A DNA stretch of 64,000 nucleotides from Armatimonadota bacterium. GTDB taxonomy: Bacteria; Armatimonadota; Fervidibacteria; Fervidibacterales; Thermosaccharophagaceae. Below, in pieces: positions 36,524-37,561 of this stretch. The first letter of the stretch is position 1. Each line of letters opens with the position of its first letter. The stretch is taken from NCBI GenBank assembly GCA_025062195.1, contig JANXAS010000013.1:1-64000 (forward strand). Direction: 5' to 3'. The translations under genes and the position numbers were made by a program. The notes beneath the pieces are model-generated. The model was not told the origin of the DNA. It worked only from the letters and a program-made list of their open reading frames with translations, and ran no database searches.

Positions 36524-37021
36524 TCACCTTCGCTGCTCAAAGAAGCGCCGAAGCAAACCCGCACACTCCTCACACAACACGCCACCAACCACTGCAACGA
36601 TGCCATCAAAAGGGCTTAAGCCAAACAGATTTACAACCGACCCAGCCGCACCGGCTCTCTCATCGTATGCACCAAAGACTAGCCTTCCAAGCCTCGCTTG
36701 AATCATTGCACCAGCGCACATAGGGCATGGCTCAAGTGTGACATAAAGAGTTGCTCTATTAAGACGCCAATCACCGGTGGCTTTGGCAGCTGCTTCAATG
36801 GCGAGCATTTCTGCATGCGCCAACGGTGACCTTAGGCTTTCGCGCATATTGTGTGCCCTCGCTACCACCTTTCCGCCGCACACAACAATGGCACCGACAG
36901 GCACTTCGCCGCTCTCAAAGGCTTTCATTGCCTCTTCAATTGCGAGGCGCATGAACGCCACATCTTCGTTTGAGACGAATATGGGAGAACTTACAGCTTC
37001 ACCTGACCTTCGGGAAGGCAT
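36524..37021 (-). CDS. tadA: tRNA adenosine(34) deaminase
   Basis: TadA deaminates A34 to inosine in tRNA-Arg(ACG), letting one tRNA read three Arg codons. The zinc site and catalytic Glu are visible as HAEMLAIEAA and the PCPMCAGAM motif, with GAYDERAGAAGS downstream. Length 166 is normal; ATG 37021 follows GGTGAG. It lies 48 bases downstream of the tRNA gene series, which includes tRNA-Arg(ACG), on the same strand, so enzyme and substrate may be in one transcript. Confidence 0.93.
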   Translation of the reverse strand: MPSRRSGEAVSSPIFVSNEDVAFMRLAIEEAMKAFESGEVPVGAIVVCGGKVVARAHNMRESLRSPLAHAEMLAIEAAAKATGDWRLNRATLYVTLEPCPMCAGAMIQARLGRLVFGAYDERAGAAGSVVNLFGLSPFDGIVAVVGGVLCEECAGLLRRFFEQRR

Positions 37022-37069
37022 CACAACTCACCAATGTGAGCTATCTTGGGGCTCTCCAAACATTTGGTG

Positions 37070-37142
37070 TGCCCCTGCCCGGACTCGAACCGGGATCTAC
37101 GGCTTAGGAGGCCGCCGCTCTGTCCTCTTGAGCTACAGGGGC
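37070..37142 (-). tRNA. tRNA-Arg (anticodon CCT)
   Basis: A complete cloverleaf of 73 bases on the minus strand. The acceptor stem is GCCCCTG paired with CAGGGGC, the D stem GCTC/GAGC, the anticodon loop CTCCTAA (anticodon CCT, reading AGG), and the T arm CCCGG-TTCGAGT-CCGGG. The discriminator base is A and no CCA is encoded. It is the last of the four tRNAs in transcription order and lies just upstream of tadA. Confidence 0.95.
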
Positions 37143-37171
37143 AGCAATCTATGGCTTTACCAATACGCCAG

Positions 37172-37245
37172 TGCGCCCGGCGCGACTCGAACGCGCGACC
37201 TCTGGCTCCGGAGGCCAGCGCTCTGTCCGGCTGAGCTACGGGCGC
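37172..37245 (-). tRNA. tRNA-Arg (anticodon CCG)
   Basis: A complete 74-base cloverleaf on the minus strand. The acceptor stem is GCGCCCG/CGGGCGC, the anticodon stem CTGGC/GCCAG with loop CTCCGGA (anticodon CCG, reading CGG), and the T arm GCGCG-TTCGAGT-CGCGC. The discriminator is A and CCA is not encoded. Its acceptor stem is identical to that of the next tRNA, which suggests duplication of an Arg tRNA gene. Confidence 0.95.
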
Positions 37246-37296
37246 ATTTCAATCCACGCCACCCACAATTCATTCGGAAGGCTAAAAACACTTTGG

Positions 37297-37371
37297 CGCG
37301 CCCGGAGGGATTCGAACCCCCGACCCCGGGATCCGTAGTCCCGTGCTCTATTCCAGCTGAGCTACGGGCGC
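37297..37371 (-). tRNA. tRNA-Arg (anticodon ACG, TadA substrate)
   Basis: A complete 75-base cloverleaf on the minus strand. The acceptor stem is GCGCCCG/CGGGCGC, the anticodon stem CGGGA/TCCCG with loop CTACGGA (anticodon ACG, expected to become ICG), and the T stem GGGGG/CCCTC includes one G-T pair. The discriminator is G, followed by an encoded CCA. A34 is the known target of TadA, whose gene is about 280 bases downstream. Confidence 0.95.
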
Positions 37372-37397
37372 GCCCTTTCGCAACCCAAATTGTATGG

Positions 37398-37489
37398 CGG
37401 AGGGACCGGGATTCGAACCCGGGAGGGAGGCTTCATAACCCCCCTACGGCTTAGCAGGCCGCCGCCTTAGCCACTCGGCGCATCCCTCC
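37398..37489 (-). tRNA. tRNA-Ser (anticodon GCT)
   Basis: A class II tRNA of 92 bases on the minus strand. The acceptor stem is GGAGGGA/TCCCTCC, the anticodon loop CTGCTAA (anticodon GCT, reading AGC and AGT), followed by a long variable arm (AGGGGGGTT...CCTCCCT) and the T arm CCCGG-GTTCGAAT-CCGG. The discriminator is G, followed by an encoded CCA. It is first in the four-tRNA series. Confidence 0.95.
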
Positions 37490-37561
37490 ACAATGCCGCT
37501 TTTCATTTTAACACTGTGCAGCTACATCGTAAAGCACGGCACAGATCAGGATGGATTATCC

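Follow-up and report, generated by a model that had tools for sequence, protein, structure and literature searches.

In the window studied here, i.e. the whole stretch of 64,000 nucleotides of Armatimonadota DNA that was analysed, the gene for a tRNA(adenosine-34) deaminase, tadA, follows directly behind a string of Arg and Ser tRNA genes, one of which encodes the expected substrate of the enzyme, tRNA-Arg(ACG). TadA together with tRNA-Arg(ICG) is usually described as near-universal, and often essential, in bacteria. The locus raises the question of why the deaminase gene lies among these tRNA genes, and whether the linkage has to do with the substrate. We consider it fairly likely that the locus is an old mixed tRNA-protein operon, probably older than the phylum, and that the decoding module to which it belongs has been dismantled several times in Armatimonadota.

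Exactly four tRNA genes were predicted by ARAGORN in the 64-kb window, all on the minus strand and inside 421 bases (Table 1). The genes run Ser(GCT)-Arg(ACG)-Arg(CCG)-Arg(CCT)-tadA along the direction of transcription; the substrate Arg(ACG) is the third tRNA upstream of tadA and not its neighbour. It has the anticodon loop CTACGGA and an encoded CCA, and it accounts for the one match in the genome to the Arg(ACG)-or-Arg(GCG) pattern. The initial annotation, which had listed Arg tRNAs (CCT, CCG and ACG) and a Ser tRNA (GCT) followed by tadA on the same strand, is borne out by ARAGORN and the profile match, and its gap of 48 bases is right within one base (47 nt from Arg(CCT) to an ATG; 44 nt to a GTG).

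Table 1. Features of the tRNA-tadA locus in the window, listed along the direction of transcription
Feature	Position	Strand	Basis
Candidate sigma-70-like promoter TTTACG-17-TAAAAT, just 5' of Ser(GCT)	37505..37533	-	promoter scan
tRNA-Ser(GCT), first gene of the cluster	37395..37489	-	ARAGORN
tRNA-Arg(ACG), expected TadA substrate	37294..37371	-	ARAGORN
tRNA-Arg(CCG), reads CGG	37171..37245	-	ARAGORN
tRNA-Arg(CCT), directly 5' of tadA	37069..37142	-	ARAGORN
Arg(CCT)-tadA junction, 44 nt, with SD-like GGTGAG (by eye)	37025..37068	-	sequence, terminator scan
tadA, tRNA(adenosine-34) deaminase, 165-166 aa	36524..37024	-	NF008113, PF14437, PF00383, PDB matches, alignment

No terminator-like site was detected between the window tRNAs and tadA, and the sigma-70-like promoter near Ser(GCT) is not significant alone (1 found vs 1.1 expected in shuffles); both the promoter and the terminator scans of the locus are at chance level. 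Where Arg(CCT) and tadA meet, a small hairpin (37010-37068, minus strand) pairs the SD-like GGTGAG, and the folding of this stretch is weak (z-score -1.75). A 225-aa open reading frame on the plus strand (36777-37454) runs antisense to the tRNAs and tadA; it is read as an artefact of the tRNA sequence. The window genome (3.42 Mb) has 44 tRNAs by RF00005, and the Arg anticodons among those that were read, which are part of the 44, are ACG, CCG, CCT, TCT and TCG. One TadA is over the NF008113 cut-off in this genome, and a weaker deaminase is encoded on contig C15.

The window TadA scores 151.8 bits against NF008113 (curated cut-off 150), is over the cut-off for both PF14437 and PF00383, and has a tRNA-specific adenosine deaminase as its best match among solved structures in PDB (E 6.6e-49). 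The zinc and proton-shuttle motifs HAE (H69-A70-E71) and PCPMC (P98-C99-x-M101-C102) are invariant in an alignment of 13 sequences, and the substrate expected for such an enzyme, a tRNA-Arg with an ACG anticodon, is encoded in the same genome. The protein is thus predicted to convert A34 to inosine. The window TadA (36527-37021, minus strand) also reads SPFDGIV, with DG at the place of NH in 11 of 12 relatives and TH in one; with DG for NH the enzyme may be altered or under relaxed constraint, and this counts against our main reading.

A clear TadA is present in only 13 of the 291 Armatimonadota genomes (153-179 bits in the NF008113 profile search), with the next match at 87.5 bits. These calls rest on the gap in score and not on the curated NF008113 cut-off, because the latter is unfair to the sample: 12 of the 14 control genomes match and only 5 pass. 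Matches at 87.5 bits and below were not counted as TadA; judged by motif, most of 11 such low-scoring proteins look like guanine deaminases and that of G002 looks like RibD, and the best match of the low-scoring protein in G227 is a guanine deaminase. Two genomes without clear TadA, G211 and G120 (loci L026 and L031), carry TadA-like paralogues with altered motifs. Within each TadA-bearing family all sampled members have the gene (3/3 in f6 and 2/2 each in f23, f25 and f44), and four further TadA-bearing families are single-genome families. Among 121 sampled Chloroflexota genomes, 26 have a match to NF008113 at E 1e-20 (19 above 94 bits and 7 at 76-84 bits), so TadA is a minority there too and patchiness is not special to Armatimonadota.

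Comparison of the 13 TadA-bearing Armatimonadota genomes reveals which tRNAs accompany the deaminase gene. Arg(CCT) is directly upstream of tadA in 11, Arg(CCG) lies ahead of Arg(CCT) in 10, and Ser(CGA) plus Ser(GGA) follow downstream of tadA in nine; in eight genomes tadA sits at the Arg(CCT)/Ser(CGA) junction with tRNAs on both sides. Arg(ACG) is within the tadA array in three (G000, which is the window genome, G274 and G275) and away from it in eight (G008, G022, G035, G040, G041, G044, G250 and G251), while it was not found in TadA-bearing G042 and G043 (1060 contigs; 72% complete), which counts against the main reading. Where Arg(ACG) was found in a TadA-bearing genome it is directly preceded by Ser(GCT) in 9 of 11 cases. 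Hence tadA belongs regularly to an Arg/Ser tRNA string, to which the substrate Arg(ACG) is tied more loosely.

For other phyla, the best 80 tadA loci of a longer match list were scanned for tRNAs. In 24 of these best 80 a same-strand tRNA, nearly always Arg or Ser, lies within 300 bases of tadA, and in the other 56, many of them from Bacillota, none was detected within that distance. Within 1200 bases upstream of tadA the closest tRNA is Arg(CCT) in 8 of the best 80 loci, Arg(ACG) in four and Glu(CTC) in one; on the downstream side the closest is Ser(CGA) in 23 loci and Ser(GGA) in one. Near-complete versions of the cluster are present in a Clostridiales bin, in Scalindua, in a Poribacteria bin and in a bin titled Deltaproteobacteria (Myxococcota in the TadA tree), and four Chloroflexota tadA loci have Ser(CGA) alone. 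Since some tadA genes outside the phylum have a comparable gene order around them, the cluster is old and not specific to the window genome, though the arrangement is far from universal. The recurrence within the phylum together with the tRNAs near tadA outside it makes the Arg(CCT)-tadA adjacency more than chance. The suggestion in the initial annotation that the linkage might reflect co-regulation therefore stands in one part, the conserved linkage of tadA with tRNAs, and falls in the other, a link specific to the substrate (Arg(ACG) in the array in 3 of 13 genomes vs Arg(CCT) adjacent in 11); likewise, absence of linkage in relatives had been named as the outcome that would speak against it, and here tadA stays linked with the tRNA cluster and is largely unlinked from Arg(ACG) itself.

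Same strand, short gaps and no terminator-like site, i.e. the arrangement of a mixed tRNA-mRNA operon, were found at the window locus, and features of this kind favour co-transcription of the tRNAs and tadA. The first ATG behind Arg(CCT) in the 11 genomes is at 6, 7, 7, 10, 12, 20, 21, 22, 29, 47 and 134 nt (median 20; 6-47 nt in 10 of the 11), and in seven (G042, G022, G251, G250, G274, G008 and G040) the first possible start codon is 6-12 nt behind Arg(CCT). Use of these nearest starts would confine any tadA promoter to the tRNA gene itself, which makes read-through followed by tRNA processing likely; a later true start codon would leave promoter room, and this counts against the main reading. 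That the adjacency is instead a leftover of an old cluster order with no transcriptional meaning, tadA having its own promoter, is in our view unlikely. It would agree with G044, where tadA is apart from the Arg tRNAs, with G041, where no tRNA was found within the 17.5 kb read around tadA, and with the start codons being predictions only, whereas the 6-12 nt in seven genomes, if these starts are used, would leave a promoter of its own no place except within the tRNA gene.

At the other end of the gene, Ser(CGA) starts 24 nt inside the end of the tadA open reading frame in G274 and G275 (the two loci being L077 10440-10535 and L079 3806-3901), so that the 5' part of the Ser(CGA) gene also specifies the TadA C-terminus, GEVAELG or GEVAEHG. 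As a consequence of this overlap, excision of the tRNA would remove the tadA stop codon, which predicts competition between the two products.

The tRNA string is also present in genomes without tadA. All four order-mates of the window genome that were examined have Ser(GCT)-Arg(GCG), i.e. GCG in the slot of the window's Arg(ACG): G002 has Ser(GCT)-Arg(GCG)-Arg(CCG)-Arg(CCT) without tadA, and G001, G003 and G004 have Ser(GCT)-Arg(GCG)-Arg(CCG). No tadA remnant was detected at the order-mate loci (best tblastn match E 2.8). Nine TadA-less genomes (G248, with an added Cys tRNA, G249, G252, G255, G013, G259, G263, G268 and G282) keep the full string, which runs from Ser(GCT) through CCG and GCG (whose order varies) and CCT to Ser(CGA) and Ser(GGA), and in them Arg(CCT) and Ser(CGA) are 13-132 nt apart. 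Seven more (G038, G223, G009, G232, G233, G023 and G186) retain Arg(GCG)-Arg(CCT)-Ser(CGA), the last two being 7-166 nt apart. In total 16 TadA-less genomes have Arg(CCT) followed by Ser(CGA) at a distance of 7-166 nt; the remaining 10 of the 26 TadA-less loci compared show shorter or different orders, partly since the loci are short. Because much of the tRNA cluster persists without tadA, co-regulation of enzyme and substrate is unlikely to hold the cluster together, and the linkage in the window is likely inherited with an old cluster rather than a recent pairing of enzyme and substrate. With respect to codons, Arg codon use in RpoB does not differ between TadA-bearing and TadA-less genomes (p 0.12-0.23), which counts against the main reading; CGA is used in RpoB with and without TadA, and makes up 35% of CGN in TadA-less G002.

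The distribution of TadA could have arisen by loss or by gain. In an RpoB tree of 30 genomes, in which 9 of the 13 TadA-bearing genomes were sampled and which was rooted with three outsiders (one of them long-branched), all nine TadA-bearing rows are in one starred clade of 15, and the starred branches force at least three changes of TadA state. The window genome is sister to TadA-less G001 plus G002, and G275 is sister to TadA-less G255, G263 and G282. Either three losses, or two losses and a single gain, may lie behind these changes. The tree of TadA itself, from which a length filter removed 2 of the 80 outside loci, is poorly resolved, with 7 of the 13 phylum copies in a starred clade and five changes for the phylum, and the TadA copies of G274 and G275 have rows from Poribacteria (88/80) and Myxococcota (86/84) as neighbours. 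Left unconstrained, this tree keeps the copies of the phylum apart, which counts against the main reading and leaves horizontal transfer of some of them open; when all 13 are constrained to one clade, the topology is not rejected (p-AU 0.227).

An ancestral loss, with tadA or a tRNA-tadA cassette regained later by the TadA-bearing families, would account for the patchy distribution and for the five changes and outside neighbours in the TadA tree. We judge it to be distinctly unlikely, since every TadA-bearing family has TadA in all its sampled members, since tadA is in 8 of 13 genomes at the same CCT/Ser(CGA) junction of an array that is also present in TadA-less relatives, and since the one-clade test is not rejected. 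The shared junction, the old order and the one-clade test together make repeated loss the better reading than gain. The idea that tadA stays beside tRNA-Arg(ACG) to ensure joint production of enzyme and substrate, to which the same strand, the short gap, the lack of a terminator-like site in between and Arg(ACG) as the nearest upstream tRNA in 4 of the best 80 outside loci would lend themselves, is very unlikely and was rejected as the cause of the linkage, because no more than 3 of the 13 genomes have Arg(ACG) within the tadA array, against 8 that have it elsewhere, and because the array outlives tadA.

The genomes were also searched for Arg(ACG) and Arg(GCG) and, in part, for Arg(TCG). The Arg(ACG) pattern matches 21 of the 291 genomes and its reversed control 26, and only confirmed matches were counted for this reason. 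ARAGORN confirmed Arg(ACG) in 12 of the 21 (eight TadA-bearing and four TadA-less); the other nine have at most 3 of 5 stem pairs, and in G049, the lone fetched genome of those nine, no tRNA was predicted by ARAGORN. A search with one mismatch added Arg(ACG) in three more TadA-bearing genomes, giving 11 of 13 in total. The TadA-less genomes with Arg(ACG), G016, G045, G120 and G200, count against the main reading. In G120 and G200 the tRNA is on contigs of 3.9 and 3.5 kb, and both genomes have a GCG pattern match. In G016 and G045, which belong to one genus, Arg(ACG) lies in dense arrays of 12 and 9 tRNAs (L085 7685-9408 and L086 8226-9269), which give the impression of being candidate mobile-element or phage arrays.

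The Arg(GCG) pattern matches 242 of the 291 genomes, including 173 of the 194 better ones (reversed control 41), and most of the 242 are pattern matches alone. Arg(GCG) was predicted by ARAGORN in all 34 TadA-less genomes fetched on a pattern match (10 + 24), and in one batch of 29 GCG pattern matches 24 are Arg(GCG) tRNAs and five are not. Matches in three TadA-bearing genomes, G044, G274 and G275, have 3, 2 and 0 of 5 stem pairs, respectively; with their anticodon stems unpaired these are not tRNAs. The pattern also misses some tRNAs, as G016, G045, G050 and G054 (family f14) have GCG with U38 for A38, an Arg(GCG)-like sequence with the loop TTGCGGT that was called on its letters and full stem pairing and not by ARAGORN. 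Arg(TCG) was predicted by ARAGORN in TadA-bearing G000, G040, G044, G250, G251 and G274 and in TadA-less G001 and G002, and by pattern and stem pairing in all six further TadA-less genomes examined; of the nine TadA-bearing genomes searched for it by pattern, three (G042, G043 and G275) gave no Arg(TCG), which counts against the main reading. The window genome, having Arg(ACG) and TadA and no GCG pattern match, is not in the GCG-replacement state of the Candidate Phyla Radiation (CPR; see below), while its order-mates G001 and G002 are, as far as the searches see (GCG present; no ACG or TadA).

The origin of Arg(GCG) was addressed in a tRNA tree with position 34 masked. Of its 34 GCG rows, 17 group with ACG/TCG and 17 are on the CCG plus CCT side, 11 of the latter inside a CCG clade (support 93/89; the main split has 92/86 and is not starred). 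A single GCG clade is rejected (p-AU 0.0104; 76 columns, groups by anticodon, test run after the tree was seen), and judged by these alignments the GCG tRNAs belong to more than one lineage. In 14 of the 15 genomes for which both tRNAs were compared, G017 being the exception, GCG resembles the Arg(CCG) of the same genome (0.83-0.97) more than it does any Arg(ACG) from TadA-bearing genomes (0.72-0.84). The order-mates G001-G003 count against the main reading here, the identity of their GCG being 0.83-0.85 to the own CCG, 0.81 to the window ACG and 0.82-0.84 to TCG, and for G003 the TCG tRNA is marginally nearer than the own CCG; a CCG origin is thus weakly indicated in the order-mates. In eight of the nine full arrays GCG follows CCG; in G249 and in the order-mates GCG comes first, and this differing order suggests more than one event, although gene conversion could blur the picture. 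The window Arg(ACG) is nearer to its order's Arg(TCG) (6-8 differences) than to other Arg(ACG) genes, which counts against the main reading and makes gene conversion or re-lettering, in either direction, possible.

Taken as an old operon whose decoding module was dismantled repeatedly, the locus would have worked as follows. Transcription of the Ser/Arg tRNA string would continue across tadA, and the tadA message that remains after tRNA processing would probably have a short leader. TadA would convert A34 of tRNA-Arg(ACG) to inosine, which would read CGU, CGC and CGA; as Arg(TCG), present in many genomes of the phylum, can read CGA, inosine would be needed only for CGC. A tRNA-Arg would then have been re-lettered to GCG, through C34->G34 in Arg(CCG) in one set of families and from an ACG/TCG-type tRNA in another, and once GCG had arisen both Arg(ACG) and tadA would have become dispensable, with the rest of the array remaining. 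The window genome would represent the original state and its order-mates the replaced state. What the data show is the gene order, the presence and absence of genes, the identity of the tRNAs and more than one GCG lineage; co-transcription, deaminase activity, the sequence of steps and loss as opposed to gain are inferred. This reading is weakened by the three of nine TadA-bearing genomes in which no Arg(TCG) turned up, by the weak case for a CCG origin in the order-mates and by the tadA start codons, which are predictions. A more detailed version is tentative, and we give it clearly less than even weight: the tadA message would be freed by processing of the enclosing tRNAs and the deaminase metered by tRNA output, and the module would have been dismantled in place at least three times (if all the changes in the RpoB tree are losses) through re-lettering of a tRNA-Arg of the same array to GCG and a clean drop of tadA between Arg(CCT) and Ser(CGA), the window lineage having kept the ancestral state beside a switched sister family.

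The presence of both states in one phylum, with recognisably the same array, provides natural before-and-after pairs for the replacement of a decoding rule. Such pairs could show the required order, perhaps with tRNA-Arg(TCG) before GCG and tadA lost last, and why CGN is still decoded with inosine elsewhere; the contrast between the window genome and its own order-mates is the part worth following.

Mixed tRNA-mRNA operons exist, e.g. thrU-tyrU-glyT-thrT-tufB in Escherichia coli, which has in common with the present locus that the tRNAs are followed closely, on the same strand, by a translation-related protein gene. Unlike tufB, tadA has tRNAs both upstream and downstream of it in 8 of 13 genomes, and the operon here is predicted from gene order. 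Like the bacterial TadA/tRNA-Arg(ICG) system in the portion of PMC3711424 available to us, the window has TadA with HAE and PCPMC, Arg(ACG), and Arg(CCG) for CGG; the non-Mollicute rows of that portion (8 of 10 in full) have no TCG or GCG gene, whereas the window genome also has Arg(TCG). In Mollicutes, according to the same portion of PMC3711424, tadA was lost with CGN still read as arginine, as here, and those Mollicutes keep Arg(ACG) as the reader where TadA-less Armatimonadota have Arg(GCG) instead. The anticodon shifts or remolding described in the available parts of PMC3923123 and PMC4783518 likewise involve a change of tRNA anticodon, often after duplication and with loss of the old gene; these parts deal with eukaryotes and mitochondria, with relatively few shifts in Enterobacteriaceae, and here the shift accompanies the loss of a modification enzyme.

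Loss of TadA with GCG in its place has already been published for CPR, and some deep-branching bacteria are said not to use inosine (PMC3711424, PMC8629427 and PMC8072771, in the parts available). For the latter PMC8629427 cites, in the part available, a 2019 paper, which may already cover Armatimonadota. Our literature search, which covered titles and the starts of abstracts and few subscription journals, gave no description of dismantling in place in Armatimonadota; the replacement of I34 by G34 is known in bacteria, and the dismantling of an array in place looks new. According to the available part of PMC8629427, CPR members lack ACG and use GCG with UCG and CCG. TadA-less Armatimonadota resemble them in carrying GCG, with TCG where examined, and differ from CPR as represented there in that one phylum has both states, that the order of the array is often kept without tadA, and that GCG belongs to more than one lineage.
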